NCBI GenBank assembly: GCA_017557535.1
Contig: JAFYYM010000084.1
Coordinates: 1-64,000 of the forward strand
DNA from: Bacteroidales bacterium
GTDB lineage: Bacteria > Bacteroidota > Bacteroidia > Bacteroidales > UBA932
Reading direction: 5' to 3'
Length of the DNA: 64,000 nucleotides
Shown: piece after piece, positions 1 to 64,000 of the stretch
Layout: the number at the start of each line of letters is the position of its first letter
How positions within the stretch are numbered: the first letter of the stretch is position 1
Translations under genes and position numbers: made by a program
Notes under the pieces: model-generated
What the model was told of the DNA's origin: nothing
The model's input: only the letters and a program-made list of their open reading frames with translations
Database searches by the model: none

Positions 1-56
1 GGTAGAGCACATGCTTTGCAAGCATGGGGTCGCCGGTTCGAATCCGACTACCTCCA
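1..56 (+). tRNA. tRNA-Ala(TGC), 5' truncated
   Basis: The window opens inside a tRNA at the D-loop. The anticodon stem is intact (10-14 with 22-26) and its 7-base loop carries TGC at 17-19, so the tRNA reads GCA-type alanine codons. The T arm has the usual TTCGAAT loop with one C-A mismatch in the stem, and the 3' acceptor strand ends with discriminator A at 56. CCA is not encoded. The 5' acceptor strand lies outside the window. Confidence 0.93.
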
Positions 57-57
57 C

Positions 58-94
58 AAAAAGAGGCACACGCATCATCGTGTGCCTCTTTTTC
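58..94. terminator. Bidirectional intrinsic terminator
   Basis: A near-perfect hairpin with about 16 base pairs (58-72 with 79-93) and a 6-base loop is flanked by A and T tracts on both sides. It can end the tRNA-Ala transcript on the + strand and the feoAB-hemerythrin-luxR transcript on the - strand. Confidence 0.85.
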
Positions 95-112
95 ATTTAG
101 CGTCCCTCTCCC

Positions 113-1394: not shown

Positions 1395-1410
1395 GACGCT
1401 AAGATAGCAA

Positions 1411-3483
1411 TTAAATCAGCAATGCAGTGATGTGTAAGCCGATGAAAGCACACACCCAGGCGACCACCATCGTATAGGCGCATACCGCTATCGCCCACCC
1501 CCATTTGCCGGTCTCGTTCTTGATCGCGACAAAGGTGGCTATGCAAGGGAAATATAGCAGGATGAACAACATGAAGGCTACAGCCGCCGGAAGGGAGATT
1601 GAGCTCTCCAAGGCGCCTTGAAGCTGGGTGTTTTCAGGATCATCTGTCCCATCACCGGCATACATGACACCCAGGGTACTGACAACCAGTTCCTTGGCCA
1701 CGACACCTGAGAGAAGGCTGATATCCATCTTCCAATTGAAGCCGAGAGGCTCGAGAGCAGGCGAGACGGCCTTCCCAATCTGTCCTATATAGGAATGCTC
1801 CTGCTGGTACTCGATATCGCGGTGGGAGCGAGGGAAGTAGCCCAGGCACCATATCACCACGGAACCGACAAGGATGGTTGTGGCCATCTTCTCGAGGTAC
1901 TGCTTGCCTTTCTCCCAGGTATGACGCCATGTGGCCTTTCCCGTGGGAACACGATATGGCGGTAGTTCCATCACGAAAGGAAGGTCGTCATCTTTGATGA
2001 AACGACTGAGTATCAAGGCAGAGAAGATGGCAAGCAGTACTCCGATGAAGTAAATTGCCAGCAAGGCGAGCGCTGAATGATGGGGGAAGAAAGCCCCCGC
2101 GAGGAGCACGAAAATCGGGAGCCGGCCGGCGCACGACATGAAAGGTATTATGGCTATCGTAATAAGCCGGCTCTTCCGACTCTCAATCGCCCTTGTCGCC
2201 ATTATGGCTGGGACATTGCAACCGAACCCCATCACCATAGGAATGAAAGACTTTCCGTGCAAGCCTATCCTATGCATCAGCTTGTCCATTATGAAAGCGG
2301 CACGAGCCATGTACCCGGTGTCTTCCATTATGGACAAGAAGAAATAGAGAATCAATATGTTAGGCAGGAATACAAGAACACTCCCGACTCCCGCTATGAT
2401 TCCATCGACTAGGACATCCTTCAGCCACCCTTCTTTCATGAAATTCCCCACGAAAGCGCCGAACTTGCCGACAAGCCAATCTATCCAGTTCATCGGATAC
2501 TCCCCAAGAGAGAATGTGGCTTGGAAGATGACGTAGAGTATAAGGATGAATATAGGGAACGCAGCCCATTTGTTGGTGACCACTGAGTCTATCTTCTCGG
2601 TCCAGGACTTCTCACCCAGAGGCTCTATGTGACGCACATATGTCTTCGACAGTGTGTCATGAATGAACTGGTATCTACCCTCAATCTCACCGGAATCGTC
2701 TCCGGAAATGATCTTGTCCACCGAAACCAGATCTCCGGAAGGTTCATTGTCAACTACTTCCAAGACCGTATCCAACAACTCGGGAACCCCCTCCCCTGTC
2801 CTGCAGACAGTAGGGCAGACAGGCATTCCTAAAATGTGGCCGAGCCGTTTCGTGTCGACACGGTCACCTCTTTTCTTCAACTCATCAAACATGTTCAAGG
2901 CCATCACCACCTTCAGGTTCATGTCCTTGACTTGTGTCGTGAGATAAAGGTTCCTCTCAAGATTGGAGGCGTCAACCACGTTGATCACGACATCCGGGAC
3001 GTTCTCAACCAGATTCTCCCTGACATATTTCTCCTCAGGGGAAAAAGCTGACAATGAATATGTTCCAGGGAGATCGACAAAGATCATCCTGCGGCCCTTC
3101 CATGTGAAATGTCCCTCCTTGGCGTCAACAGTCACACCGCTGTAGTTGCCTACGTGCTCATGGCTGCCCGAGGCCATGTTGAATAGGGATGTCTTCCCGC
3201 AATTAGGATTGCCGACTAGAGCGACACGTATGGTTCCGGCTTTCTCGGAGTTATAGTCTTCTTCAGAAGAGATGTCGATGAGGGCGGCTTCAGCCCTGCG
3301 AAGGGATACTTTGTATCCAAGTATCTCGTATTCGATAGGATCCTTGAGGGGAGCATTCATCACGGCAGAGACTTTCTTACCGGGTATGAAGCCCATCTCG
3401 ATCAGTCTCTTACGAAAATTCCCATGACCGCCGACTTTTAAGACGACGCCCGTATCCCCTGTTTTCAGATCTGAAAGTTTCAT
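1411..3483 (-). CDS. feoB: Ferrous iron transporter, FeoA-FeoB fusion
   Basis: This 690-residue protein imports Fe(II) across the inner membrane. Residues 1-75 form a FeoA SH3-like domain. They are followed by the FeoB G domain with G1 at 91-98 (GNPNCGKT), G3 DLPG at 137-140 and G4 NMFD at 197-200, then a helical spacer and the membrane region from about 310 to the C-terminus. Gate-region motifs such as GFGCNVPAIMATRAIES are visible. FeoA fused to FeoB is common in Bacteroidetes, where FeoB can serve in fermentative anaerobes. It is the first gene of the operon. The 102-base gap to the divergent gene holds its likely promoter. Confidence 0.96.
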   Translation of the reverse strand: MKLSDLKTGDTGVVLKVGGHGNFRKRLIEMGFIPGKKVSAVMNAPLKDPIEYEILGYKVSLRRAEAALIDISSEEDYNSEKAGTIRVALVGNPNCGKTSLFNMASGSHEHVGNYSGVTVDAKEGHFTWKGRRMIFVDLPGTYSLSAFSPEEKYVRENLVENVPDVVINVVDASNLERNLYLTTQVKDMNLKVVMALNMFDELKKRGDRVDTKRLGHILGMPVCPTVCRTGEGVPELLDTVLEVVDNEPSGDLVSVDKIISGDDSGEIEGRYQFIHDTLSKTYVRHIEPLGEKSWTEKIDSVVTNKWAAFPIFILILYVIFQATFSLGEYPMNWIDWLVGKFGAFVGNFMKEGWLKDVLVDGIIAGVGSVLVFLPNILILYFFLSIMEDTGYMARAAFIMDKLMHRIGLHGKSFIPMVMGFGCNVPAIMATRAIESRKSRLITIAIIPFMSCAGRLPIFVLLAGAFFPHHSALALLAIYFIGVLLAIFSALILSRFIKDDDLPFVMELPPYRVPTGKATWRHTWEKGKQYLEKMATTILVGSVVIWCLGYFPRSHRDIEYQQEHSYIGQIGKAVSPALEPLGFNWKMDISLLSGVVAKELVVSTLGVMYAGDGTDDPENTQLQGALESSISLPAAVAFMLFILLYFPCIATFVAIKNETGKWGWAIAVCAYTMVVAWVCAFIGLHITALLI

Positions 3484-42110: not shown

Positions 42111-45100
42111 ATGAGCGATTTCCGTATTTTCGTAGAGAAGTATCCCGAATTCCAAGTTGAGGCTCGAAGCCTTTTGTCCGAGTTTAATGAGAACCTTCAG
42201 CTCAAGCTGAAGACCCTCAGGTTGATTAATGTCTACGATCTTTTCGGATTCACACCGGAATTGCTCGAGAAGAGCCGTTACAGCGTGTTCGGAGAGATAG
42301 TCACTGATTCGGTGACAGACATTATGCCTGACGCGGCCAAGTATATCGCCGTGGAGTACCTCCCTGGTCAGTTCGACCAGAGGGCTGCCTCGGCAGTGGA
42401 CTGTGTCCACCTTATTGACCCGAAGGCTAAGATCAACATCAAGAGCTCTAAACTCATAATAGTCGACGACGACGCCTCGAAGGAGACTCTGGAGAAGATC
42501 CGCCATTACGTGATCAATCCCGTGGAATCGAGAGAGAAAGATCTAGGGAAACTATCTGACACTGAGCATGCCGCAGTCAAGGATGTACCAGTGCTTGAAG
42601 GATTTCGCTCGATGGAAGGTGCTGATCTCAAGGCATATTGCAAAAAGATGGGGCTCGCGATGAATGAGGATGACCTCGCCGAAGTCGTCAGGTATTTCAC
42701 CGCGGAGGGAAGGGATCCCAATGAGACCGAACTCAGGATCCTGGACACCTATTGGAGCGACCATTGCCGCCACACTACATTCACGACAGAGCTCGAGGAC
42801 ATCACTGTCGAGGAATCTTTCATAAAGGAAGACATCGAGGGCACCATGAGGCTGTACCTCAAAATGCGCTCGGATCTCGGCCGGGAAAACAAAGGGCTGA
42901 ACCTCATGGATATGGCCACGATAGGTGCCAAATACCTCAGGAAAGCCGGCAAACTGGACGACATGGAGGTGAGTGAGGAGAACAACGCCTGTAGCATATT
43001 CATCGACGTTGATGTTGACGGCCAGTCCGAGCGTTGGCTCCTCATGTTCAAGAATGAGACTCACAACCACCCTACGGAAATCGAACCTTTCGGCGGCGCC
43101 GCGACTTGCCTTGGAGGAGCCATCAGGGATCCTCTTTCCGGACGTGCTTACGTCTATCAGGCCATGCGCGTCACTGGTGCCGGGGATATTTACAAACCTG
43201 TCTCTGAGACGATTCCTGGCAAGCTGCCCCAGAAGGTTATCACCCGCAAGGCCGCCCATGGATATTCCAGCTATGGCAACCAGATCGGACTCGCCACAAC
43301 CCACGTCAGGGAAATTTTCCATGACGGTTACACGGCGAAGAGGATGGAGGTCGGAGCGGTGGTTGGTGCCGTTAAGGCGGCTAATGTCAGGCGGGAAAGT
43401 CCAGCTCCTGGCGACGTGGTGATGATGCTTGGAGGCCGCACCGGCAGGGATGGTATTGGTGGAGCCACAGGCTCATCCAAAGAGCACACCGAGGAATCCC
43501 TTGAGACTTGCGGCAGCGAGGTGCAAAAAGGTAATCCGCCTGAGGAAAGGAAGCTCGAGAGACTGTTCCGCAGGCCTGAGGTGACCTCTTTGATCAAGAA
43601 ATCCAACGATTTCGGAGCCGGAGGTGTCAGCGTCGCTATCGGTGAGCTGACCGCCGGACTGGACATCTACCTCGACAGGGTCCCCGTCAAATACAGCGGA
43701 ATGAATTCCACGGAACTGGCTATCAGTGAATCGCAAGAGAGGATGGCAGTCGTTATCGAGGCCGCGAGCGAGGAGCGGTTCAAGGAGTATTGCCACTCCG
43801 AAAACATCGAAGTGACCCATGTCGCTGATGTGACGGATACGGAGAGGATGAGGATGTTCAACAAGGGCGAGCTGGTCGTTGATCTCCGCAGGGACTTCAT
43901 TGACAGCGCCGGAGCGAAGCATTTTTCCAAGTCTACCGTCGGAGCCGTGGATGACTCAGATCCGTTTTCTCGTGATGTCCCCGGGAAGAACTTGAAAGAG
44001 AGGATGTTCGCCAATCTTCAGGATCCAAATGTCACAAGCCAGAAGGGCCTGATCGAGATGTTTGACTCAACAATCGGGCGGTCCACAGTCTTGATGCCCT
44101 TTGGAGGCGAGCTTCAGACCACCGAGACCCAGGTCTCCGTCCAGAAACTCCCTGTTGACGGATTCACCGACACGGCCAGCATGATGGCATTCGGATTCAA
44201 TCCCGACCTCTGTGACTGGAGCCCTTACCACGGAGCCGCCTACTCGTTCGTGGAAGCCTGCTCGAAGATTGTCGCCGCGGGAGGCGACTGGAAAACGATG
44301 AGATTCTCCTGCCAGGAGTATTTCGAGAGAATGACTTCAGACCCTCACACCTGGGGTAAGCCTACAGCGGCACTTCTCGGAGCCCTGAAAATGCAGGAAG
44401 CTCTTGGACTGCCTTCAATAGGTGGCAAAGACTCCATGAGTGGCTCATTTGAGACAGAGCACGGACCTATACATGTTCCACCAACCCTCATCGCGTTCGG
44501 TATAACTCCTGTGAAGGTCGGTCATGTCATCTCGCCCGAGTTCAAGTGGGAAGGCGACAGGTTGTATCTGGTGAGGCACACGCCTCTCTCCAACAAGATG
44601 CCTGATGTGGAGCAACTCAAGAGGAACTGGGATAACATCCTCGCGAAGATCAAGGACGGCACCATCGTGGCCGCCTGGTCTGTCGGGTTCGGAGGAGTCG
44701 CCGAGGGTCTCTGCAAGATGAGTTTCGGCAATGCCTTCGGCTTCGATGTGAGACTGAGCGAAGACGACCTGTTCAATCTCTCCTACGGATCGATCGTGAT
44801 CGAGACCGACGGGGAAGTGGATTTCGAGAATGCCGAACTGATCGGAGATGTCACCTCTGGAGAAGACGGGAATGTCCGGGTCAACGGTACATCAATCTCC
44901 ATTTTCGAGTTGATGGATTTCAATGGTTCCCTATTCGAGAAAGTATACCCGGCTGTCAGCGAATCCTCCCACAAGAGGCTTCTGCCTCGTGGAATGGAAG
45001 GGATCAAGCCGTTCAAGGCCAAAAAGACAGATCTCGAATATAAAGGCCCGAAGGTGGATAAGGTCATCGCTTACCTTCCCGTATTCCCTGGAACGAACTG

Positions 45101-45863
45101 CGACTATGACTCCGCCAAGGCTTTCCGCAAAGCGGGAGCCGAGGTCCGCACGACCGTTTTCCGCAACCTCTCCGACAAGGATGTCTTCGACTCGATTGAT
45201 GAGATGGCCGCCGGTATCCGTAGCTGCCAGATACTCATGCTCTCAGGAGGGTTCTCAGCGGGTGATGAGCCTGACGGTAGCGGCAAGTTCATAGCCAATG
45301 TGCTGAACAACGGGGAGATAGCCTCAGCAATCGAGGATTTGCTGTCCCGGGGAGGTCTTATCCTCGGAATATGCAATGGCTTCCAGGCTCTTGTCAAATC
45401 CGGTCTTCTTCCTTACGGGGAGCTCGGAAAGGTCACCAAAGACTCCCCCACGCTGTTCCGCAATAACATCAACCGTCACATCTCCCAGATGGTGACCACA
45501 AGAGTCGCCACCACCAACTCACCATGGCTGCGAGGTATGACAATAGGTGACGAATATACCATCCCGGTCAGCCATGGAGAGGGTAAATTTGTCGTGAATG
45601 AGGAACTCGCTAAGGAGTTATTCGCAAACGGACAGGTGGCTTTCCAGTATGTTGATCCGCTCACGGACGAGCCCACGATGGAGTCACCTTACAACCCGAA
45701 TGGCTCATATTACGCCATTGAGGGTATCATCGGCCGCAACGGCCAGATACTTGGCAAGATGGGCCATAGCGAGCGCTATGAGAATGGATTGTTCAAGAAT
45801 ATTGAAGCTGATCTTGAGCAGCCCCTCTTTGAGAATGCCGTAAGATATTTCGGAGTTAAATAA
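42111..45863 (+). CDS. purL: Phosphoribosylformylglycinamidine synthase, large type
   Basis: This 1250-residue single-chain FGAM synthase of purine synthesis uses FGAR, glutamine and ATP. It contains the N-terminal PurS-like part, the duplicated AIRS-type ATPase halves (YWSDHCRHTTF, FKNETHNHPTEIEPFGGAATC, GGKDSMSG) and the C-terminal glutaminase (VFPGTNCDYD, ILGICNGFQALVKSGLLP with nucleophile Cys, SHGEGKF). Its stop codon shares one base with the next start (TAATG), coupling it to the methyltransferase gene. Confidence 0.97.
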   Translation: MSDFRIFVEKYPEFQVEARSLLSEFNENLQLKLKTLRLINVYDLFGFTPELLEKSRYSVFGEIVTDSVTDIMPDAAKYIAVEYLPGQFDQRAASAVDCVHLIDPKAKINIKSSKLIIVDDDASKETLEKIRHYVINPVESREKDLGKLSDTEHAAVKDVPVLEGFRSMEGADLKAYCKKMGLAMNEDDLAEVVRYFTAEGRDPNETELRILDTYWSDHCRHTTFTTELEDITVEESFIKEDIEGTMRLYLKMRSDLGRENKGLNLMDMATIGAKYLRKAGKLDDMEVSEENNACSIFIDVDVDGQSERWLLMFKNETHNHPTEIEPFGGAATCLGGAIRDPLSGRAYVYQAMRVTGAGDIYKPVSETIPGKLPQKVITRKAAHGYSSYGNQIGLATTHVREIFHDGYTAKRMEVGAVVGAVKAANVRRESPAPGDVVMMLGGRTGRDGIGGATGSSKEHTEESLETCGSEVQKGNPPEERKLERLFRRPEVTSLIKKSNDFGAGGVSVAIGELTAGLDIYLDRVPVKYSGMNSTELAISESQERMAVVIEAASEERFKEYCHSENIEVTHVADVTDTERMRMFNKGELVVDLRRDFIDSAGAKHFSKSTVGAVDDSDPFSRDVPGKNLKERMFANLQDPNVTSQKGLIEMFDSTIGRSTVLMPFGGELQTTETQVSVQKLPVDGFTDTASMMAFGFNPDLCDWSPYHGAAYSFVEACSKIVAAGGDWKTMRFSCQEYFERMTSDPHTWGKPTAALLGALKMQEALGLPSIGGKDSMSGSFETEHGPIHVPPTLIAFGITPVKVGHVISPEFKWEGDRLYLVRHTPLSNKMPDVEQLKRNWDNILAKIKDGTIVAAWSVGFGGVAEGLCKMSFGNAFGFDVRLSEDDLFNLSYGSIVIETDGEVDFENAELIGDVTSGEDGNVRVNGTSISIFELMDFNGSLFEKVYPAVSESSHKRLLPRGMEGIKPFKAKKTDLEYKGPKVDKVIAYLPVFPGTNCDYDSAKAFRKAGAEVRTTVFRNLSDKDVFDSIDEMAAGIRSCQILMLSGGFSAGDEPDGSGKFIANVLNNGEIASAIEDLLSRGGLILGICNGFQALVKSGLLPYGELGKVTKDSPTLFRNNINRHISQMVTTRVATTNSPWLRGMTIGDEYTIPVSHGEGKFVVNEELAKELFANGQVAFQYVDPLTDEPTMESPYNPNGSYYAIEGIIGRNGQILGKMGHSERYENGLFKNIEADLEQPLFENAVRYFGVK

Positions 45864-47122
45864 TGACAGGTAAAGAACGAATCAGGACTGTCCTGGAGCA
45901 CCATGAGGCGGACAGGATCGCGGTAGATTTCGGAACGACCCCCGTCACCGGAATCCACTGCAAGGTTGTAGAGGCGTTGCGTAAGCACTATGGCCTGGAC
46001 GATCACCCGGTCTATGTCCATGAACCCGGACAAATGCTGGGATATATCGAAGACGACCTTGCTGAAGCTCTCGGTACTGACACCGCCGGTTGTTTCTCAC
46101 CAAAGAATTCGATAGGGGTCTGGAACAAAGACTGGAAGAAGTACCGGATGCCATGGGGGCAGGAGGTGATGCTTCCTGCCAGGATGGTCGATTCTTTCAC
46201 CGAGAAAGATGGAGGTCTCTATTCATATCCCGAGGGTGACAAATCCCTGCCTCCTTCCTGCCATATGCCTGAACGCTGCTATTTCTTCGATTCGATAGAA
46301 CGTCAACAAGGTGAGATTGATGACGACAATCTCAATGTCGAGGATAATCTCCAGGAATATGGAGAAATTGACGACGAGACCCTGTCCTATTGGAAGACTG
46401 TCACCGACAGGGCCGCCAAGACAGGACGGGCTGTTGTGGCCGGATTCGGGGGAATGGCCCTTGGGGATGTCGCCAGGATAATCTCTCCAGCGATTCGCGA
46501 GCCACGGGGTATCAGGAGCGTAGCGGAGTGGTATATGTCCACAGTCTGCCGGCCTGACTACATAAAGGAACTGTTCGACCGCATCTCGACCCTGGCAGTC
46601 AAGAACCTCGAAAAAATCTATTCAGTAGTAGGTGATAACGTTGACGTGGTTTACGTTTGCGGAGCTGATTTCGGCACGCAGACCAGTCAATTCATGTCAG
46701 TTGATACTCTCAACGACCTGTATGTCCCCTACTACAAACGGATGAACGACTGGATTCACCAGAACACAACCTGGAATACTTTCAAGCATTGCTGCGGGGC
46801 CATCTATCCCTTAATGGACAGCTTGATCAATGCGGGTTTCGACATCATCAATCCCGTGCAGATAGCGGCAAAGGACATGGATCCGCAAAGGCTAAAAGAC
46901 GAATTCGGAGACCGTGTCACTTTCTGGGGCGGAGGAGTCGACACCCAGAAGACGCTGCCGTTCGGAACCCCTGCCCAAGTTCGGGATGAGGTTCTCAAGC
47001 TATGTGAGATATTCAGTAAAGACGGAGGATTCGTATATAACACCGTCCACAACATCCAGGCTAATGTCCCTGTTGAGAATGTGGTCGCGCTCATGGATAC
47101 TTTAAAAGAAATTCGCTCATAA
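45863..47122 (+). CDS. UroD-family methyltransferase (MT1 candidate)
   Basis: This 419-residue cytoplasmic protein is of the uroporphyrinogen-decarboxylase superfamily, in the branch that transfers methyl groups rather than decarboxylating. Signs are the zinc-type motif FKHCCG (His309, Cys311), GFDIINPVQIAAKDMDP, and WGGGVDTQKTLPFGTP. The next gene encodes a corrinoid protein. I infer that it demethylates a small substrate and loads Co(I) on that protein. It overlaps the purL stop by one base. True HemE is excluded by the HxC motif and the operon. Confidence 0.85.
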   Translation: MTGKERIRTVLEHHEADRIAVDFGTTPVTGIHCKVVEALRKHYGLDDHPVYVHEPGQMLGYIEDDLAEALGTDTAGCFSPKNSIGVWNKDWKKYRMPWGQEVMLPARMVDSFTEKDGGLYSYPEGDKSLPPSCHMPERCYFFDSIERQQGEIDDDNLNVEDNLQEYGEIDDETLSYWKTVTDRAAKTGRAVVAGFGGMALGDVARIISPAIREPRGIRSVAEWYMSTVCRPDYIKELFDRISTLAVKNLEKIYSVVGDNVDVVYVCGADFGTQTSQFMSVDTLNDLYVPYYKRMNDWIHQNTTWNTFKHCCGAIYPLMDSLINAGFDIINPVQIAAKDMDPQRLKDEFGDRVTFWGGGVDTQKTLPFGTPAQVRDEVLKLCEIFSKDGGFVYNTVHNIQANVPVENVVALMDTLKEIRS

Positions 47123-47123
47123 T

Positions 47124-47741
47124 ATGGATAAACTCTACGATGCCATTTTCAAGGGGATGGCTCCTTTGGCAAAAACCGCTGTCCTTGAAGCATTGGACAA
47201 CGACAAATCACCACAGGACATCATCGACGAATCCATGATTCCGGCGATGGAAGCTATTGGACAGGAATTCGAGGCCGGCAATGTCTTCGTGCCAAACCTT
47301 CTTCTCAGCGCGAGGGCCATGAAATCAGCCCTGGAAATCCTGAAGCCGCTCATGATGGCTGGACTGACCACCACTCTTGGGACAGTTGTCATCGGAACGG
47401 TGAAGGGAGATCTCCACGACATTGGCAAGAATCTGGTGGCATCGATGCTTGAAGGGCGCGGATTCAAGGTGATCAACCTTGGGACCGATGTGTCCAAAGA
47501 ACGCTTCATCGAGGCGGCTAAGGAGAACAATGCGGATATAATCTGCCTGTCAGCCCTCCTGACAACAACGATGGATTATATGAAAGAGATTGTGGATGCG
47601 GTCAGGGCGGATGGCTTGGACATAAAGATTATGGTAGGTGGTGCCCCGCTTACCCAGGATTTCGCCACCAGTATCGGTGCCGACGGCTATAGCTCAAATG
47701 CGAACGAAGCTGTTGTGGTGGCAAAAAAACTATTGTCCTGA
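47124..47741 (+). CDS. Corrinoid (B12-binding) methyltransferase protein
   Basis: This 205-residue protein has an N-terminal helical cap (about 1-85, SMIPAMEAIGQEFEAGNVFVPNLLLSA pattern) and a Rossmann B12 domain with the ligand motif D96-x-H98-x-x-G101 in GTVKGDLHDIGKNLV. His98 is expected to ligate cobalt base-off. CLSALLTTTM and MVGGAPLT match the B12-binding loops. It resembles MtaC/MtbC/MttC carriers. It is one base after MT1 and its stop overlaps the next gene by one base. Confidence 0.95.
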   Translation: MDKLYDAIFKGMAPLAKTAVLEALDNDKSPQDIIDESMIPAMEAIGQEFEAGNVFVPNLLLSARAMKSALEILKPLMMAGLTTTLGTVVIGTVKGDLHDIGKNLVASMLEGRGFKVINLGTDVSKERFIEAAKENNADIICLSALLTTTMDYMKEIVDAVRADGLDIKIMVGGAPLTQDFATSIGADGYSSNANEAVVVAKKLLS

Positions 47742-48403
47742 TGATTGAGAGGGCTTTCCAGATAAGCCCGGAAGAACTGCCCGAGAAAGAAGTGTGGTTC
47801 GCTATGGGATACAGGGATTCCGTACCAGATCAAAGGATACGGGACATGGTCCGTGACATCAGGAACGAACTCGTTCCCAAGGCGACACCCCGTTATATTT
47901 ACCAGGTTGTCGAGGCTGAGAGGCTATCCTCCAGGCAGGTCCGCTTCGCAGGCAAGACCTTTAATCCTGAGGGAATCATCTGTTCATACCTCAAGGGCAT
48001 GACCCATGCCCTCCTTTTCATAGGCACAGCGGGATGGGAATACGAAAAAGCCAAGGAAGAGTTGAAGGAAAGTGAGGACATTGTCGCTGACTTCATAGCT
48101 GATTCGATCGGGACTGTCCTCGCCGAGATGACGGTCAGCCGGATTGAGCAGGATTACGATGGGCCCGGAACCATTTCCATGCCCTACAGCCCTGGTTATT
48201 GCAACTGGGACATCAGGGAACAGCATCTCTTGTTCTCCCTCTTCCCTGAAAAACCTTGTGGGGTTATTCTTTCCGAGTCTTCGCTAATGATGCCGGAGAA
48301 ATCCGTCAGTGGTTTCTTCGCCTTGGGAGAGACCCTTCAAAGACAACCTTATCATTGTCAAATCTGCAAGAACAACAAATGCTACAAAAGAAGAAACGCC
48401 TAG
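47741..48403 (+). CDS. MetH activation-domain-like protein
   Basis: This 220-residue protein resembles the stand-alone form of the methionine-synthase reactivation (AdoMet-binding) domain. Its signature is ISMPYSPGYCNWDIREQH near residue 145-165, corresponding to the RxSPGYP motif of MetH. The C-terminus carries a Cys trio (HCQICKNNKCYKR) that could bind a metal or Fe-S centre. It probably restores oxidised Co(II) corrinoid of the preceding protein. It overlaps the corrinoid gene by one base and the next gene by 25. No RamA or RACE-type iron-sulfur activator is nearby. Confidence 0.82.
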   Translation: MIERAFQISPEELPEKEVWFAMGYRDSVPDQRIRDMVRDIRNELVPKATPRYIYQVVEAERLSSRQVRFAGKTFNPEGIICSYLKGMTHALLFIGTAGWEYEKAKEELKESEDIVADFIADSIGTVLAEMTVSRIEQDYDGPGTISMPYSPGYCNWDIREQHLLFSLFPEKPCGVILSESSLMMPEKSVSGFFALGETLQRQPYHCQICKNNKCYKRRNA

Positions 48404-49356
48404 TAATCCCCATTATGACTCATCCGGGGATTGAGCTTTGTGGCAGCACTGTCTTTAAAGCGGTGACTGAAGGCCAGGCGCATGCGGACGCTATTCTCGC
48501 GTTGAATGACAAGTTCCCCGCCGATGCGGTGACAGCGATAATGGACCTCACTGTTGAAGCGGAAGCGTTCGGTGCGGAAATCAGGTTTTCCGAGAATGAC
48601 ATCCCGAACGTAATCGGCCGACTTGTATCTGATTCGGATGAAGTCGACACTCTTGAGGTTCCTTCACTCGACAGAGGGAGGATTCGGGAATACCTGAAAG
48701 CCAACAGCATAGTTGCCTCAAACATCAAGGACAAGAGGATATTCGGGGGGTGTATCGGTCCGTTCTCCCTTGCCGGCAGACTCTTTGACCTCTCCGAGTT
48801 GATGATGGCCATGTACATCGAGCCAGAGACCGTGACAATGCTCCTGGACAAGTGCACCGCCTTCATCACTGAATATCTGAAGGCGATGAAGGAGACTGGT
48901 ATCAACGGCGTGATCCTTGCCGAACCAGCCGCTGGACTGGTGTCCAACGACGATTGCCTTCAGTATTCCTCAGCTTATGTCCGGAAGATCGTTGAGGCCG
49001 TACAAGATGACAGTTTCTCAATTGTTTTGCATAACTGCGGCAATACAGGTCATTGCACAAAGGCGATGCTCAGCTCGGGAGCTTCCGCCCTGCATTTCGG
49101 CAACAAGGCTGACATGGTGAACGCACTGGAGACTTGCCCCTCAGACCTTCCGGTGATGGGTAACATCGATCCTGTGGGTATCATGCGGCAAGGTTCTCCC
49201 GAAAAAGTCTATGCCTCCGTGAGCGAACTGCTGGAAAAAACCTCCGGATACGACAACTTCATCCTATCCACAGGATGTGATGTGCCGCCTCGTACCCCCT
49301 TCGAGAATATTCAAGCATTCTATCAAGCCCTTAAGGACTACAATGAGAAAGATTGA
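48379..49356 (+). CDS. UroD-family methyltransferase (MT2), MtaA/MtbA-like
   Basis: This 325-residue protein has the zinc set of methylcobamide methyltransferases: His218-x-Cys220 (LHNCGNTGH) and Cys300 in LSTGCDVPPRTPFENI. The substrate-side motif MTHPGIELCG near the N-terminus fits MtaA/MtbA-type enzymes. It should move the methyl group from corrinoid to an acceptor thiol or folate. The acceptor is unknown. I start at the ATG at 48379; an open frame further upstream lies wholly within the previous gene. It overlaps the transporter gene by 14 bases. Confidence 0.85.
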   Translation: MLQKKKRLVIPIMTHPGIELCGSTVFKAVTEGQAHADAILALNDKFPADAVTAIMDLTVEAEAFGAEIRFSENDIPNVIGRLVSDSDEVDTLEVPSLDRGRIREYLKANSIVASNIKDKRIFGGCIGPFSLAGRLFDLSELMMAMYIEPETVTMLLDKCTAFITEYLKAMKETGINGVILAEPAAGLVSNDDCLQYSSAYVRKIVEAVQDDSFSIVLHNCGNTGHCTKAMLSSGASALHFGNKADMVNALETCPSDLPVMGNIDPVGIMRQGSPEKVYASVSELLEKTSGYDNFILSTGCDVPPRTPFENIQAFYQALKDYNEKD

Positions 49357-50800
49357 TTACTCTTCCTCAATGACCTCGTTCCGTTGGTGGATGTGCGCGC
49401 TGTTATTCTTCGCCACGACCGTCAACTACCTCGACCGTCAGGTACTTTCCCTCACTTACGAGGAATTCATCAAGCCCGAGTTTCATTGGACAGATGCCGA
49501 GTACGGCACCGTAACGGGATTCTTCAGCATCTTCTATGCGATTTGCTGCCTGTTCGCGGGAAAGTTCATTGACTGGATCGGAGTTAAACGGGGATATATC
49601 ATCTCGATCTGCGTATGGTCCCTTGGAGCAGTACTCCATGCGACCACCGGAATGTTGACAGCATCCATGACCGGAGTCGAGTCCGCAGCTGCCTTGAAGG
49701 CCGTTAAAGCCGGAAGCGACATAGCTTTGGCGATCTCGACAACCTCCGTCTATCTTTTCATGCTATGGCGAGGCGTGCTGGCGCTGGGTGAAGCCGGCAA
49801 CTTCCCCTCAGCCATCAAGGTCACCGCTGAATATTTCCCGAAAAAGGACCGTGCCTTCGCGACCGCCATATTCAACGCCGGCTCCTCGATAGGAGCCCTG
49901 GCCGCTCCCCTATGCATCCCTCCACTCGCCAAGCACATGGGATGGGAGATGGCGTTCATCATCATCGGTGCCTTGGGATTCATCTGGGTGTTTTTCTGGG
50001 CTTTCATGTACGACAAGCCGGAATCCCATCCGAAGGTCAATGAAGCTGAGCTTGAGTATTTACACCAGGATGACGCTGAAGAGGCTGCCGAAAAAGCGGC
50101 CATCGCCGCGGAAAGGAGCATGTCTATCCGTGAATGTCTCAGATACCGTCAGGCGTGGGCGGCCATCCTGAATAAGTTCATCTCCGACTGCGTGTGGTGG
50201 TTCTTCCTTTTCTGGGCCCCGTCATATTTCGACACGGAATTCGGAGCAAAGGCAACCACGATGAAGGGGAAACTCCTGCTGATCACGCTCTACGCCATCT
50301 GCACGGTTCTTTCCATCTTCGGAGGATATGTTCCGAAACACTTCGTTGAGAAGAAGGGCATGCACCCTTTTGACGCCCGCATGAAGTCAATGCTGATTTT
50401 CGCCATGTTCCCGCTGATGGCCATCTTAGCCCAGCCCATGGGAGCCTGGTTCCACACCCCCTGGTGGCCCGCCATCTTGATCGGCCTCGCCGCCGCCGGA
50501 CATTCAGCCTGGGCGGCCAACACCTACAGTCTGATCTCTGACCTCTTCCCTAAGGGGACTATCGGCACACTGACCGGGATGTGCTCCCTCGCTGGAGGAA
50601 TCTCGACTATGGCCTTGCAGAAAATAGCTGGCAACCTTTTCACATTCGCTGAGAAAGCCGGGGCATCTTTTCGCTTCCTGGGATTCGAGGGGAAGCCTGC
50701 CGGGTATTTCATCATCTTCTGCTACTGCGGACTCGCCTACCTTATTTCCTGGATAGTAATGAAATCATTGGTCCCGAAATACAAACCTGTCAGGCAATAG
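49343..50800 (+). CDS. MFS transporter, ACS/hexuronate-type
   Basis: This 485-residue transporter with about 12 membrane segments belongs to the anion:cation symporter group typified by ExuT: FFATTVNYLDRQVLSL at the N-terminus, GEAGNFPSAIKVTAEYFPKKDRAFATAIFNAGSSIGALAAP and the central loop. Known members carry hexuronates and related organic acids. I start at the ATG at 49343, 14 bases inside the MT2 gene. Its coupling to the corrinoid genes suggests that it imports the methylated substrate. Confidence 0.9.
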   Translation: MRKIDYSSSMTSFRWWMCALLFFATTVNYLDRQVLSLTYEEFIKPEFHWTDAEYGTVTGFFSIFYAICCLFAGKFIDWIGVKRGYIISICVWSLGAVLHATTGMLTASMTGVESAAALKAVKAGSDIALAISTTSVYLFMLWRGVLALGEAGNFPSAIKVTAEYFPKKDRAFATAIFNAGSSIGALAAPLCIPPLAKHMGWEMAFIIIGALGFIWVFFWAFMYDKPESHPKVNEAELEYLHQDDAEEAAEKAAIAAERSMSIRECLRYRQAWAAILNKFISDCVWWFFLFWAPSYFDTEFGAKATTMKGKLLLITLYAICTVLSIFGGYVPKHFVEKKGMHPFDARMKSMLIFAMFPLMAILAQPMGAWFHTPWWPAILIGLAAAGHSAWAANTYSLISDLFPKGTIGTLTGMCSLAGGISTMALQKIAGNLFTFAEKAGASFRFLGFEGKPAGYFIIFCYCGLAYLISWIVMKSLVPKYKPVRQ

Positions 50801-50864: not shown

Positions 50865-51026
50865 ATGAAAAAATACACTTGCGACATCTGCGGTTACGAG
50901 TATGATCCCGCCGTCGGCGATCCTGACAACGGAATAGCGCCCGGAACAGCTTTCGAGGATCTTCCCGAGGATTGGGTATGCCCTCTCTGCGGCGTAGGTA
51001 AGGAGGACTTCTCCGAAACGGAATAA
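50865..51026 (+). CDS. rub: Rubredoxin
   Basis: A 53-residue protein, beginning [15 protein letters not shown] and ending with [11 protein letters not shown], has the two CxxCG knuckles that bind one iron. It is a one-electron carrier in anaerobes for oxygen and peroxide reduction. It lies 64 bases after the transporter and 32 bases before cysS. Serving as electron donor for corrinoid reactivation is conceivable but unsupported. Confidence 0.97.
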
Positions 51027-54132: not shown

Positions 54133-57072
54133 CTACTTGACTATCACGATATTAGGAACCTTACGGGCCCCGGCATGGTCGAACTTCCGGTTGTCGTAAG
54201 GGAAGTTAATTATTCCGGTCTCGTCTGTCCAAAGGGTCGATGAACCACCTCCGTCAAGGTTCAGCGCATCTTTGAGACCGAGAAGACGGGCGACGGTGGC
54301 CAGCTCAGGAATGCTCATGCCATCGGCCTGACCGGGGAACCTACCGTCCACCACAACCATATAGACCATTCCTTTGTCGTCCCAGCCAATGAATGTCCTG
54401 GGATGACGCATATAATTGAAGGAAGATTTCATATCAATAACCGGCACCTTCCCCTCTTTCATAAGAACCGGACCCGAGGCTAAGGCTGAATAATACTCCG
54501 TCCTGTAGGTTTCCACTTTAGTGGAGTCGTACTGAAGTATTTCCAACTTATGACCTTCCTTGTCTTTTATGGCAAGGACACCGTTGGAACGCTCTTCCCC
54601 TGACGACGGAGTCCGTCCTAGAACCTCCCCATCTATGGAGAAGAAGGTGTGGGGAATAAGCCTTCTCATATTGAAATAGCTCCCGTTCAGCGCTATACGG
54701 GCTCCCTCACGGATCGCAATCGAGTCGGTGGTGGCAGCCATTTCCCCGGGAGCGTGAACTAAGGCCGTCTCCCTTCCTGAGGCAGGATACCTCGCGATGC
54801 TGATACTCTGCGTAGAGTTTCTGAAAGGGAATTGAACATATGTCCATTCAGCGCCATCTCCGGCGTCCTTCCATTCCCAACCCGCGGCATTCCACTCCTC
54901 ACGGTCTTTTGGGATGACGGCTCCCCACTCCCTGTTCGGGATCGGGCCCATCTCAAGGGTAAGTTCCCCACCAGCCATGATGTCCTCATGGGTGATCCAT
55001 GGACCATCAAGAGGCTTCCCATTCAAAGCGGCGCTCTGAATATATTTATTCTCGTCGGAGACTCCTTTTGCCTTGATTCTAAACACTTTCCCATTAGAAA
55101 GACGCATTTCCGACTCTTCGAACACCGGACTCCCAATGGTGTAAACAGCCTCACCTGGAGTGACGGGATAAAAACCTAAGGAGGAGAAAACCACGAAGGA
55201 GGTCATACCGCCACCATCCTCATCACCCGGCACGCCCATCAGATCATCCCTGAACCAAGTGTCAAGCATCTGCCGAATCCTCTTCTGTGTCTTCCATGGC
55301 GCCCCGGCATAATTGTATAGATAGGGAATATGCAAAGACGGCTCATTGGCCATCGAGAATTGGCCCACGTTGCCGGTATGATCCGGAAACTTGGCGTAGA
55401 AAAAGAACTTGGCCCTTCCCAATGGGGTGGCGAACATATTGTCAAGCTCCATCACGAACCTATCGGGACCGCCCATCAGCGACACCAGATCCGGTATGTT
55501 GTGCTGAACATCCCAACGATACACCCAGGCGTTGTTCTCATCGTAGTATTGACGACCGCCTATCCCTCCTCCGAAATTGTAGTCAACGTCAGGAAGGAAT
55601 TCTCCATCCTTGTCCTTTGGATGGAAGAATAATGTCTCAGGATTGAACAACTTTCGGTAGTTGCCGGACCAATCGCGGTAATACTCAGCGGCTTCCTTAT
55701 CCCCCGCAGCATCAGCGAGTTTTGACAAGGCCCAAGAGTCGTATGCCGTACCGAGACTCACAGCCACTGGCTGGCGTTGCTCCCATCCATCCACATTCGG
55801 ATCGGTCTCAGGCTCTCCATCCTTGAGAGCGGGGAACCAGCCGTTATTCCAATAAAACTCATCCAGAGCCCCGGCAGGATTTCCGCTCCATGGAACCAAA
55901 GTCTTCTCCCTCAACGCTTTCTGACCAGCCAAGAAGGCTGCCTTGACATCGATGTCCAAACCCTTGGCTAAAGCGTCGGCGAAGGTCGGAATCCCGTGGT
56001 TGGAGTTCATCCTACGAGAGTCTCCCGTCACCTCAGGGAAGGTGGGCATCCAACCTGTCCCCATCTGATCAGCCATCCTTAAATATGACGCCAGGATATT
56101 CTCCTCAATAGGACGGTCCATAAGGATGCGGAGAGGATGCGCCGCCCTGTAAGTGTCCCAAATCCAGTCATCCGTGTAGAACGGCACTCCCCCATCCTCA
56201 TGGACAGAGTTGTCGAAGGCGCTCCAATACCGCCCGTCCTCGCTCATAAGGATAGGCCTCTCGAAAGTCCGGTAATATGAGGTGTAAAAGACTCTCTTAC
56301 GTTTCTCCGGGCCTTTTACGGATATCCTTCCCAAGGTCTCATTCCATATCTTCCTGCCTGCGGCCGCAAGTGCATCGATATCATAATCCGTTAATTCAGC
56401 CCTAAGGTTGGCCTTGGCTTGGGCAATGTCGATGAATGATATTCCGTAGCGAAGCCTGACGGATCCGGTTTCAAATCCAAGGGTTGTCCATCCACTTTCC
56501 TCCTCTTCGGAAACAACTGTGGACAAGGGTTTTACTTCTGGCTCGAGATACACATAAACCTTTGTCTCCCCATCCACAATCTGCCAACCTTCCAGAGCCT
56601 CGCCATTCCAGGAGACTTTACCTTTCCCGCTGTAAAGGATAACTTTAAACGGAGAGTCCGCCTTAAGTTCATATATGGCCGAATGATTAGACAGCGCATA
56701 TCGGGCTTTGACTTCCCCTTCGGAAAGGGTAACCTCGAAGGAATATGGCGTGATGGACTCGTTATCATAAGAAACGGGTATAACCGGCCCCTTCTCGCCT
56801 CTTGTCGTGACCGAGAGCTTGAAGGCAGAGCGCTCCCTGTGGTTAGTGACTATCACCGGCAAGCCATTCAGGTATTCCGAAGTGTAATCAGATCGCTCCG
56901 GATAGATCCTGAGCATCGAGTTGGGCAGTTGGACCGTCGGATAGGTCGGGACAAGAAGGTGGCTGATATTCCCGGCGTAAGGGTTGACGTAATCTACTGG
57001 TTCGAGTTTCGGATCGACACAAGCGACCACGAATAAAGCAGCCAGTAATGCGGGAAAAACATGATTTTTCAT
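54133..57072 (-). CDS. GH92 alpha-mannosidase fused to NAGPA phosphodiester glycosidase
   Basis: This 979-residue lipoprotein (LFVVAC signal) has two catalytic parts. Residues about 25-705 are GH92: YVNPYAGN, WIWDTYRAAHPLRILM, NSNHGIPTFADA, YDENNAWVYRWDVQH (general-acid Glu aligned) and GDEDGGGMTSFVVFSSLGFYPV (base Asp kept, though the usual Cys is Gly). Residues about 740-979 are a phosphodiester glycosidase (NAGPA) domain: ALNGSYFNMR, RTFIGWDDKG and NLDGGGSSTLW. GH92 enzymes are calcium-dependent alpha-mannosidases, and NAGPA enzymes split sugar-1-phosphate diesters. Together they suggest a phosphomannosyl-type substrate. I start at the ATG at 57072; the frame stays open through the upstream terminator. 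Confidence 0.9.
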   Translation of the reverse strand: MKNHVFPALLAALFVVACVDPKLEPVDYVNPYAGNISHLLVPTYPTVQLPNSMLRIYPERSDYTSEYLNGLPVIVTNHRERSAFKLSVTTRGEKGPVIPVSYDNESITPYSFEVTLSEGEVKARYALSNHSAIYELKADSPFKVILYSGKGKVSWNGEALEGWQIVDGETKVYVYLEPEVKPLSTVVSEEEESGWTTLGFETGSVRLRYGISFIDIAQAKANLRAELTDYDIDALAAAGRKIWNETLGRISVKGPEKRKRVFYTSYYRTFERPILMSEDGRYWSAFDNSVHEDGGVPFYTDDWIWDTYRAAHPLRILMDRPIEENILASYLRMADQMGTGWMPTFPEVTGDSRRMNSNHGIPTFADALAKGLDIDVKAAFLAGQKALREKTLVPWSGNPAGALDEFYWNNGWFPALKDGEPETDPNVDGWEQRQPVAVSLGTAYDSWALSKLADAAGDKEAAEYYRDWSGNYRKLFNPETLFFHPKDKDGEFLPDVDYNFGGGIGGRQYYDENNAWVYRWDVQHNIPDLVSLMGGPDRFVMELDNMFATPLGRAKFFFYAKFPDHTGNVGQFSMANEPSLHIPYLYNYAGAPWKTQKRIRQMLDTWFRDDLMGVPGDEDGGGMTSFVVFSSLGFYPVTPGEAVYTIGSPVFEESEMRLSNGKVFRIKAKGVSDENKYIQSAALNGKPLDGPWITHEDIMAGGELTLEMGPIPNREWGAVIPKDREEWNAAGWEWKDAGDGAEWTYVQFPFRNSTQSISIARYPASGRETALVHAPGEMAATTDSIAIREGARIALNGSYFNMRRLIPHTFFSIDGEVLGRTPSSGEERSNGVLAIKDKEGHKLEILQYDSTKVETYRTEYYSALASGPVLMKEGKVPVIDMKSSFNYMRHPRTFIGWDDKGMVYMVVVDGRFPGQADGMSIPELATVARLLGLKDALNLDGGGSSTLWTDETGIINFPYDNRKFDHAGARKVPNIVIVK

Positions 57073-57106
57073 CTTGAACGGGGATGAATGGTTCTCTTTG
57101 TAAAGA

Positions 57107-57150
57107 TACAAAAAAACAAGGAGAGACCGCAATATGTCAGTCTCTCCTTG
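57107..57150 (-). terminator. Terminator after the OB-fold lipoprotein gene
   Basis: An 11-bp stem (57150-57140 with 57127-57117) is followed on the - strand by TTTTTTTG. It would reduce or stop read-through from the TonB-receptor genes into GH92-NAGPA. Confidence 0.85.
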
Positions 57151-57168
57151 CATAAGGGATAGATAAGC

Positions 57169-62950: not shown

Positions 62951-62962
62951 CGGCAGAAAACT

Positions 62963-63013
62963 TCCGGGGAAGGATTTGCGCCGCTTGCAACCCCGGTCAA
63001 AAAAATGCTAAAG
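62963..63013 (+). promoter_or_regulatory. SAM-II riboswitch
   Basis: P1 is a perfect 6-bp stem (CCGGGG 62964-62969 with CCCCGG 62991-62996). The loop holds GGATTTG and CCGCTTGCAA, and the tail AAAAATGCTAAAG runs to the metK start region. These match the SAM-II pseudoknot (GATTT, CCG-TTGCAA, AATG-GCTAAA). Binding SAM would block ribosome access to metK, whose ATG is 3 bases further on. Confidence 0.88.
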
Positions 63014-63015
63014 AA

Positions 63016-64000
63016 ATGAATTACCTTTTCACTTCGGAGTCAGTCTCCGAGGGCCATCCTGATAAGGTGGCCGACCAAATTTCAGACGCTATTCTTGACG
63101 AGTTCCTACGCCGTGACCCCGAGTCCAGGGTCGCGTGCGAGACATTCTGCTCCACCGGTCTGGTGATTGTGGGCGGAGAGGTACGCTCAGACGCCTATGT
63201 CGACATCCAAGGAACTGTACGGGACGTGATTAACCGGATCGGCTACAACAAGGCCGATTACATGTTTGACGGCAACTCCTGCGGAGTGCTTTCGCAAATC
63301 CACGAGCAGAGTCAGGACATCAACCGGGGTGTGTCCCGGGAGAATCCTGAGGATCAAGGAGCTGGAGACCAGGGTATGATGTTCGGTTACGCCTGCAAGG
63401 CGACTGAGAACTACATGCCCCTAGCCTTGTATCTATCCCATATCACACTCAAGGAACTTGCTGATATCAGACACAATGAGCTCGATTTGATGCCTTATCT
63501 GAGACCTGACTCAAAGGCCCAGTACACAATCGAGTTTGACTCTTCAGACAAGCCGGTAAGAGTCCACACTATAGTCCTCTCGACCCAACACGACGAGTTC
63601 GGTACCGACGAGGAAATGCACTCCAAGATTGAGAGCGATGTACGGAATATCCTGCTTCCCAGAGTGATAGCGAAGCTGAACCCCTCGACAGCCGCATTGT
63701 TCAAGGGAGACTTCATTCTCCATGTCAACCCGACAGGCAAGTTCGTGATCGGAGGGCCCGCCGGAGACACCGGTCTGACCGGCAGAAAGATAATCGTGGA
63801 CACCTACGGAGGCCGCTCAGCCCATGGCGGCGGAGCTTTCTCAGGCAAAGACCCTTCCAAGGTCGACCGCAGTGCGGCATATGCCGCCAGGTATATCGCC
63901 AAGAATATGGTCGCCGCCGGAGTGGCTGAGGAGATGATGGTGCAGATCGCCTACGCCATTGGCGTGGCCAAGCCGGTCAGCGTGTATGTCAACACGAAGG
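63016..64000 (+). CDS. metK: S-adenosylmethionine synthetase, 3' truncated
   Basis: The window holds the first 328 codons without a stop. Diagnostic motifs are [49 protein letters not shown] and [23 protein letters not shown]. The enzyme makes SAM from Met and ATP. It lies behind a SAM-II riboswitch, which gives product feedback. The remaining C-terminal part lies beyond the window. Confidence 0.98.

Follow-up and report, generated by a model that had tools for sequence, protein, structure and literature searches.

A conserved five-gene corrinoid methyl-transfer operon in Bacteroidales and its possible role in folate-free methionine synthesis

Five plus-strand genes at positions 45863-50800 of the window, by which we mean the whole 64,000-nucleotide stretch of Bacteroidales DNA analysed here, are confirmed by comparative sequence analysis as a real conserved unit, beyond chance. 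They encode two UroD-superfamily methyltransferases (MT1 and MT2), a corrinoid protein (CoP), a MetH-activation-like protein (Act) and an MFS importer. In operon-bearing relatives, this set may act as a demethylase with homocysteine as the methyl sink and thereby give folate-free methionine, a reading whose chances of being right or wrong we judge to be equal.

Results

The gene calls, obtained by ORF reading and family profiles, are listed in Table 1. The start of MT2 was taken at an ATG; the mechanical ORF opens further upstream at a TTG. A 1-base gap separates MT1 from CoP, and the following junctions are overlaps of 1 base (CoP/Act), 25 bases (Act/MT2) and 14 bases (MT2/MFS). An earlier note on this DNA had described a five-gene corrinoid methyl-transfer set with overlaps or one-base gaps, and this description is confirmed by the ORF coordinates and the family profiles. 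Corrinoid methyl transfer is supported as well.

Table 1. Genes of the operon and of its immediate surroundings in the window
Feature	Position	Strand	Description
purL	42111..45863	+	1-base overlap with MT1
MT1	45863..47122	+	419 aa; UroD-superfamily methyltransferase from a separate clade with His309-x-Cys311 ... His396; predicted to demethylate the imported substrate
CoP	47124..47741	+	205 aa; corrinoid protein carrying methyl groups, with cap and B12 domains and a DLHDIG motif
Act	47741..48403	+	220 aa; stand-alone PF02965 MetH-activation-like protein, invariant C-x2-C-x4-C tail; predicted corrinoid reactivation
MT2	48379..49356	+	325 aa from ATG; MtaA/MtbA-type UroD methyltransferase, zinc site His218-x-Cys220 ... 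Cys300; predicted thiol (homocysteine) methyltransferase
MFS importer	49343..50800	+	485 aa from ATG; related to DgoT and galactonate-type transporters
rubredoxin	50865..51026	+	directly 3' of the operon; possible electron donor

The linkage of the five genes held up in the relatives: the complete order occurs at eight of eleven close Bacteroidales loci (L003-L007, L009, L010 and L012), and at one more, L008, the sequence ends inside Act at the contig end and Act-MT2-MFS resumes on another contig of that genome, C175. At L013 the sequence breaks off within CoP, and L011 (genome G520) carries the operon without MT2. The MFS gene of L010 gave matches in two reading frames, possibly because of a frameshift. 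The flanking genes vary among the close loci while the unit stays, and pairwise dN/dS ranges from 0.01 to 0.33 across the five genes (pairs with finite dS). Genome-wide searches covered nine operon-bearing relatives (G513-G521), which are the homes of all eleven close loci except L009 and L013.

The borders of the unit are less uniform. A rubredoxin gene lies directly downstream also in L003-L007 and was not found at loci L009-L012; in genome G107, rubredoxin is followed by RACo-CoP-Act-MT2. In L008, L010, L011 and L012 no purL gene was found ahead of MT1, and purL is therefore probably outside the unit. No cobalamin riboswitch was detected in the window at gathering score or in the loci of seven other relatives searched. 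In L010, one is located 52 bases before MT1, divergent and facing a TonB plug protein gene. Control of the operon itself by such an element was thus rejected, since none was detected in the window and the L010 copy points away from MT1.

In profile searches, CoP matched B12-binding (3.3e-31) and B12-binding_2 (1.2e-20). It passes the curated cut-offs for the B12-binding cap (PF02607) and for B12-binding (PF02310), as befits an MtaC/MtbC/MtgC-type carrier, and stays below those of the nearest NCBIfam models, MtgC and pyl_corrinoid. Act matched Met_synt_B12 (1.7e-7), a PF02965 homology that stands outside any MetH chain, as in the Thermotoga type. Its Cys-rich tail is common to eight aligned stand-alone Act proteins, and the activation domain of MetH in the window's genome (G000) has no such tail; Act is also without the Arg that 1j6r has just before SPGY. 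In each of G513-G521 there is a single PF02965 match, at the operon or its continuation, and a single PF02607 match, namely CoP, which is the sole cap-domain corrinoid protein there. RACo (PF14574) was found neither in the window's genome nor in any of the nine relatives. The operon also contains no folate methyltransferase, so that the earlier description of a complete set, in the acetogen sense, is not supported. Two simple roles for Act were discarded: a plain replacement of RACo, because both occur together in G107 and L148, and the missing piece of MetH in the window's genome, because MetH is full length there (1219 aa).

MT2 matched URO-D with 1e-58 and, at 156.8 bits against 235.4 for TIGR01463, stays below the MtaA/CmuA subfamily cut-off. 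It keeps the His-x-Cys...Cys zinc ligands that characterize the MtaA/MtbA methylcobamide:thiol enzymes. According to the excerpts of PMC10418091, this site marks S/Se-methyltransferases and O-methyltransferases depart from it. MT2 is therefore predicted from its sequence to be a thiol methyltransferase, with homocysteine as the likeliest acceptor.

The acceptor can be narrowed further by the methionine genes of the relatives. Genome searches found MetF (PF02219) and MetE in none of G513-G521, and full-length MetH in none of them; as the excerpts of PMC7857596 indicate, a flavin-independent MTHFR would escape PF02219. Since UxaC was found in all nine, genome incompleteness hardly explains these absences. 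Seven relatives have a truncated MetH, which consists of the homocysteine module (PF02574) and half of the folate module, its own corrinoid domain being absent; the other two gave no PF02574 match at all. The truncated copies are 69-87% identical, with the zinc-site motifs NCS and GGCCG in 7/7 and GERTN in 0/7, and omega values of 0.10-0.16 in the four measured reveal purifying selection. In G514 the same protein has a tRNA_SAD domain in frame in front. The main copy of G518 runs off its contig within the half pterin module, and in a second, partial copy the pterin match ends at profile position 125 of 244 and is followed by an in-frame alpha-L-fucosidase domain; none of these extended frames has the missing half of the folate module. 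Taken together, the thiol-type site of MT2, the relatives without MetF, MetE and full MetH, and the reduced MetH in seven of them point to homocysteine. The earlier note had left the choice between folate and a thiol open, and it now leans towards the thiol. G084, an operon-free member of the same genus, has no cap-domain match, and neither MetF nor MetE was found there, which suggests that there may be methionine auxotrophy near the operon-bearing lineages.

The window's own genome differs from this pattern. It has a full-length MetH, which is its only PF02574 match, and MetF, both on contig C97, and with these kept the operon would be supplementary there. In the MT1 tree, which leaves out ten rows, half of them near-copies and half from the window clade, the window lies within a clade whose outer member is L011 (support 100/99). 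As G520, the home of L011, is without MetH and MetF, the pattern requires repeated loss, regain or a misbinned contig. The idea that C97 is a clear contaminant was rejected: in tetranucleotide make-up it closely resembles the window contig, and an unlinked UxaC of G000 is 88-92% identical to that of G513, G514, G516 and G517, 76% to that of G515 and 65-69% to those of four other genus members compared, the G519 sequence being set aside because of a wrong frame. C97 may nevertheless be misbinned from a close relative, since close relatives cannot be distinguished by composition.

MT1 matched URO-D (E 1.1e-13) only with its C-terminal half and solved CdmB with a profile E of 0.022 over about 60 residues. 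Within its clade the motif is His-x-Cys...His: of 61 ORFs, near-copies counted, 56 have the Cys and 60 the second His. MT1 orthologues with 53-56% identity follow MtaB in G081, G093 and G069, and in the first two CoP and Act come after MtaB-MT1. The MtaB of L041 was identified by PF12176 (E 1.5e-158), those of the other two genomes by phmmer. In G107, a diverged MT1 gene (34% identity) is paired with an MFS gene (39% identity), and genes for GH88, an alginate-lyase-family protein and rhamnose mutarotase lie next to the pair.

Outside this group, 37 Bacillota regions around MT1 homologues were obtained; they come from 30 genomes, out of 49 that gave a match. Of these regions, 36 were read gene by gene and the 3.7-kb stub L120 by profile only. 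Bacillota members of the clade are often found within operons for sugars or sugar acids. L118 has the order sugar-binding protein, MT1, PfkB, RbsD, CoP, pterin methyltransferase; SBD_N/NBD_C and PdxA proteins are present in L110, enolase-superfamily and DHDPS-family proteins in L121, and GH4 in L123. In L122, L125 and L141, MT1 and CoP were seen by eye near MFS-type ORFs, and folate methyltransferases are near the homologues in L118, L125 and L154. CoP was not found in 30 of the 37 regions, some of which are cut by contig ends. Neighbours were counted in 32 regions, four near-duplicates and L120 having been dropped (L143 is without a usable frame). The near set held 112 neighbours. The distant set held 112 of 150 listed; a further MT1 of L126 and the kinase next to it were kept out of this set, and its list ended at L150. 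Among the 25 commonest families, outside which a count is given as at most 2, near exceeded far for FGGY_N (5 vs at most 2), 2-Hacid_dh_C (6 vs at most 2), Peripla_BP_4 (4 vs at most 2), PfkB (4 vs 2), ABC_tran (7 vs 3) and BPD_transp_2 (5 vs 3); BPD_transp_1 went in the opposite direction (3 vs 6). The enrichment of sugar genes over distant genes is modest.

The importer of the operon matched MFS_1 (3.2e-48), its nearest solved chain being DgoT. The galactonate-type model TIGR00893 gave E 8.9e-53 and 179.6 bits, below its cut-off of 395, and an aromatic-acid MFS model gave 43.8 bits. The claim that the operon has its own importer is thus sustained: the protein is an MFS of organic-anion type. 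As to the substrate, GH115 is present in the window's own genome and was found in none of the nine operon-bearing relatives, so a GH115-linked 4-O-methylglucuronate was rejected as the general substrate. UxaC occurs in 19 of 21 genomes, alike with or without the operon. A methylated sugar acid, as proposed earlier, is favoured by the MT1 homologues in sugar and sugar-acid operons, but the particular candidate 4-O-methylglucuronate has no specific support. Searches of an open-access collection, which excludes most subscription papers, yielded no paper in which methylated sugars or 4-O-methylglucuronic acid are demethylated with a corrinoid or cobalamin, and broader searches listed no fitting title.

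Discussion

The first step of the proposed pathway would be uptake, by the MFS protein, of a methylated organic anion, for which an O-methylated sugar acid is the probable candidate. Judging from its family, its conserved linkage and the context of its clade, MT1 would move the methyl group onto the Co(I) corrinoid of CoP, which Act, perhaps with rubredoxin, may restore when oxidised. The zinc site of MT2 suggests that this enzyme passes the methyl group to a thiol, most likely homocysteine, yielding methionine. In relatives without MetF, MetE and full MetH, the methyl group of methionine would then come from a scavenged compound and not from folate. That one corrinoid carrier can serve both demethylation and methionine synthesis is reported in the excerpts of PMC12478193.

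A rather unlikely alternative is demethylation for catabolism only. Here, the O-methyl group is stripped off a sugar acid for fermentation and goes to folate via a reversed full MetH or an unseen enzyme, and the link to methionine is incidental, with the relatives taking methionine up. MT1 homologues in sugar operons, the pterin methyltransferase that accompanies MT1 and CoP in L118, the general presence of UxaC in the relatives and the operon-free G084, where no methionine synthase was found either, would all fit, but the operon has no folate methyltransferase, MT2 carries a thiol-type zinc site, the four truncated MetH proteins measured show purifying selection and MetF was found in 0/9 relatives. 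An acetogen-like demethylase for methanol or methoxy-aromatics, in which MT1 would use methoxy acids derived from lignin, is improbable: the window operon is without MtaB, the CdmB match is short and poor, and the importer fits the galactonate model far better than the aromatic-acid model, even if MT1 orthologues follow MtaB in three genomes, MT1 and CoP lie near MFS-type ORFs in three Bacillota regions and known aromatic O-demethylases belong to the UroD superfamily (excerpts of PMC13222342). Least probable of all is a type 1 mlp-like cluster with an MT2 active on methylated thiols or selenols, since the resemblance of MT2 to soluble CoM methyltransferases, including their zinc site, is set against a single His-Cys-Cys UroD where two define such clusters, a His in MT1 where the second Cys is expected, an organic-anion-type importer and a RACo that was not found in the window's genome.

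Extending the homocysteine reading, we consider it possible, if somewhat doubtful, that a ruminant Bacteroidales lineage has cut methionine synthesis from folate, with MetF lost and, within MetH, the cobalamin module, the activation module and half of the folate module lost too, and with a sugar-acid O-demethylase operon that has its own importer now supplying methyl groups through CoP to homocysteine. In that case, the UroD clade of MT1 would represent corrinoid O-demethylases that act on methylated sugars and sugar acids in anaerobes, a large family so far uncharacterised. If true, the methionine supply of a gut anaerobe would be tied to dietary methyl groups and not to folate, mutants are predicted to be methionine auxotrophic and substrate label is predicted to appear in methionine. 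The clade, common in Bacillota sugar operons, provides candidate corrinoid demethylases for O-methylated sugars.

Several known systems share parts of this arrangement. MtaABC likewise combines a donor enzyme, a corrinoid protein and an MtaA-like MT2, and MtaB stands upstream of the MT1 orthologue in G069, G081 and G093, but MtaB (PF12176) is absent from the window operon. MtvB, OdmB, VdmB, MtoB and CdmB are UroD-fold MT1 enzymes with a partner corrinoid protein; their acceptor in bacteria is folate, in contrast to an operon without folate methyltransferase, and there is no significant full-length similarity to solved CdmB (E 0.022). Type 1 mlp clusters, as described in the excerpts of PMC10418091, also contain an SCMT-like UroD with His-Cys-Cys and a corrinoid protein. 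They are defined by Mlp2 and Mlp3, both His-Cys-Cys, whereas here there is one and MT1 is His-Cys-His; a Ram/RACE (RACo) activase is used there, whereas PF14574 was not found here, and an MT1-type enzyme with an organic-anion importer is not part of the clusters described in these excerpts. MesA-MesD share folate-independent methionine synthesis, MesA-C probably taking the methyl group from corrinoid proteins, but are MetE-related (excerpts of PMC7857596), whereas the acceptor candidates here are the UroD-type MT2 and the truncated MetH.

The closest precedent is the marine MtgBCDE system of Ruegeria pomeroyi. According to the excerpts of PMC12478193, its donor enzyme is a pfam06253 glycine betaine methyltransferase and not of the UroD type, its pterin enzyme MtgD is essential, in contrast to relatives in which no MetF was found, and reactivation is RamA-like, in place of the PF02965-type candidate with a Cys tail. 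The Ruegeria system also has a demethylase (PMC12478193, excerpts). It shares with the split methionine synthase of Phaeobacter inhibens a separate corrinoid carrier and a stand-alone homocysteine module, MetH being absent in most such bacteria (PMC12478193 and PMC5764234, excerpts). A PF02574 protein without its own corrinoid domain occurs in seven of the nine relatives; in the window's genome the only PF02574 match is the full-length MetH.

Conservation of the five-gene unit

Five tightly packed genes had been described in the earlier note, and their positions and junctions match the ORFs that we found. Domain searches assigned them to a UroD-type putative demethylase (MT1; URO-D, the C-terminal half alone scoring), a corrinoid protein (CoP; two B12-binding domains), a MetH-activation-like protein (Act; Met_synt_B12), an MtaA/MtbA-type UroD protein (MT2; URO-D) and an importer (MFS; MFS_1). 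The nearest solved chains by sequence are 1j6r for Act (named methionine synthase, matched here as a stand-alone activation protein), 4ay7 (methylcobalamin:CoM methyltransferase) for MT2 and 6e9n (D-galactonate transporter) for MFS; none was obtained from the MT1 sequence alone.

Scanning contigs with CoP yielded 28 loci, 11 of them (L003-L013) from close Bacteroidales relatives, six of which have ruminant fore-stomach or abomasum in the title. The linkage on which the earlier note had made its proposal depend is conserved, as eight of these 11 loci carry all five genes in order. At L008 the contig ends inside Act; the Act remainder, MT2 and MFS lie on C175, another contig of that genome. L011 reads MT1-CoP-Act-MFS, MT2 being absent, and in L013 the sequence breaks off within CoP. 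MT1 is preceded by purL in L003-L007 and L013 and by different genes in L008, L010, L011 and L012, which argues for a unit of five genes. A rubredoxin gene adjoins MFS downstream in the window and in L003-L007; it was not found in L009-L012. The dN/dS values of the five genes are 0.01-0.33. MT1 is rare in the wider class: at E 1e-30 it was matched in 2 of 395 genomes, the window's genome among them.

For related ARRANGEMENTS, a family search at E 1e-10 detected an MT1-like protein in 6 of 119 genomes. In three genomes (G069, G081, G093) MtaB precedes an MT1 orthologue (53-56%). CoP (59-60%) and Act (32-34%) follow in G081 and G093, with neither MT2 nor MFS found on these contigs; in G069 another ORF follows, and cap-domain and PF02965 matches lie on contig C87. 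G107, from the window's genus, has the system split between two places. One reads rubredoxin-RACo-CoP(65%)-Act(33%)-MT2(59%). The other holds an MT1-like protein (34%), MFS (39%) and an aldo/keto reductase, and its surroundings include a GH88 protein, alginate-lyase-family proteins and a rhamnose mutarotase.

Coordinates of features in the window and in compared genomes
Sequence	Position	Strand	Feature
Window	45863-50800		MT1-CoP-Act-MT2-MFS operon
Window	54133-57153	-	Single protein with GH92 and NAGPA phosphodiester glycosidase domains
Window	62960-63021	+	SAM-II riboswitch directly before the next gene
Window	63016-64000		Gene for S-adenosylmethionine synthetase, at the end of the window
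Window's genome, contig C31 (L043)	264-1331		Second, distant MT1-like UroD protein, His-x-Asp not His-x-Cys; no corrinoid protein within the 12 kb examined
L010	6490-6686	-	Cobalamin riboswitch facing away from the operon and towards a TonB plug-domain protein
G518, contig C130 (L195)	2-2026		Second, partial MetH-like copy with homocysteine module and half a pterin module, continuing in frame into an alpha-L-fucosidase domain
G520, contig C164	6109-7387		UxaC in two pieces, possibly by frameshift or assembly error

Proposed roles of the two UroD proteins

Among 61 MT1-type ORFs, near-copies included, the first His is invariant, Cys is present in 56 (Asp in five) and the second His in 60. MT2-type ORFs, again counting near-copies, show His-x-Cys in 20 of 21 and the second Cys in 19. 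MT1 His396 aligns with the third zinc ligand of MT2, Cys300, in a profile alignment (a weak match, probability 54%), and the same pairing appears in a multiple alignment of 84 sequences. Both groups, labelled from profile scores, separate in the tree at 100/99 support. According to passages in Kountz and Balskus (PMC10418091), His-Cys-Cys marks the S/Se-methyltransferases of the superfamily, and O-methyltransferases depart from it. Under this rule, the site patterns fit MT2 acting on the thiol side and MT1 on the donor side.

Putative methyl donor

In Bacillota, an MT1-like protein occurs in 49 of 398 genomes (E 1e-30). We fetched 37 neighbourhoods from 30 of these 49 and read 36; many contain sugar ABC importers, FGGY or PfkB kinases, glycoside hydrolases or sugar-acid enzymes, seven contain CoP and three a pterin methyltransferase. 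The clearest case, L118, encodes in one run a sugar-binding protein, MT1, PfkB, RbsD, CoP and a pterin methyltransferase. Compared with genes lying farther away in those regions, the sugar-gene enrichment is modest. The substrate is therefore best guessed, and no more than guessed, to be an O-methylated sugar or sugar acid. The 4-O-methylglucuronate suggested earlier gains no special support, as GH115 occurs in none of nine relatives, though it is present in the window's genome.

One Bacillota branch (L124, L142, L144, L146) has a context different from the sugar operons: its MT1 homologues lie with S-Me-THD-like proteins, amino-acid dehydrogenases and, by eye, apparent aldehyde ferredoxin oxidoreductases.

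Probable methyl acceptor in the relatives

Whole-genome searches covered the nine genomes (G513-G521) behind L003-L008 and L010-L012. Neither MetF nor MetE was found in any of them. Each has one PF02965 match, at the operon (in G518 on the contig continuing it), and one PF02607 match, which is CoP. UxaC was found in all nine, so that the absences can hardly stem from missing sequence. PF02574 matched in seven, and all seven proteins, 69-87% alike, comprise the homocysteine module followed by only the initial half of a pterin module, covering at most positions 5-135 of the 244 in the profile. Each retains the zinc-site motifs NCS and GGCCG; the folate-site motif GERTN was found in none. Six share a common end point, and at that point the contig with the G518 copy ends. 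Omega was measured for four of the seven and is 0.10-0.16; in G514 a tRNA_SAD domain precedes the truncated MetH in frame (L194). With these gene contents, the relatives would most naturally pass the methyl group of methyl-CoP to homocysteine, via truncated MetH, MT2 or both. Among seven operon-free members of the genus, six keep MetF, and in six a single cap domain lies within a frame as long as MetH.

In G084, of the same genus and 99% complete, the cap domain of MetH, MetF and MetE all went unmatched; this genome is likely that of a methionine auxotroph.

Predicted reactivation of the corrinoid

No RACo activase (PF14574) was found in the nine genomes. A C-x2-C-x4-6-C tail is common to all eight aligned stand-alone Act-type proteins and is absent from the MetH activation domain of the window's genome. 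Act might possess a site for a metal or an iron-sulfur cluster that receives electrons from rubredoxin. The Arg before SPGY in 1j6r is replaced in Act, which makes use of SAM as in MetH uncertain.

The window's own genome

The window's genome keeps MetH (1219 aa) adjoining MetF on contig C97, whose tetranucleotide make-up is close to that of the window contig. Unlinked UxaC groups this genome with the operon-bearing relatives. In the MT1 tree, L011 (from G520, with truncated MetH) falls outside the group holding the window (100/99), and L009 and L010 fall outside a smaller such group (87/96). Together with C97, these positions would imply repeated losses, a regain of MetH-MetF, or misbinning of C97 from a close relative. 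The relatives thus give the methionine reading its strongest case, whereas for the window it is indirect.

Comparison with known systems

The closest system known to work is MtgBCDE, from marine bacteria. As PMC12478193 describes, a single corrinoid carrier there takes part both in demethylating glycine betaine and in making methionine, and most such bacteria lack MetH. A split methionine synthase in Phaeobacter and folate-independent MetE-type synthases are described in sections of PMC5764234 and PMC7857596, respectively. The window operon resembles all of these in outline; it differs in an apparently absent folate step, another activase candidate and another donor enzyme.
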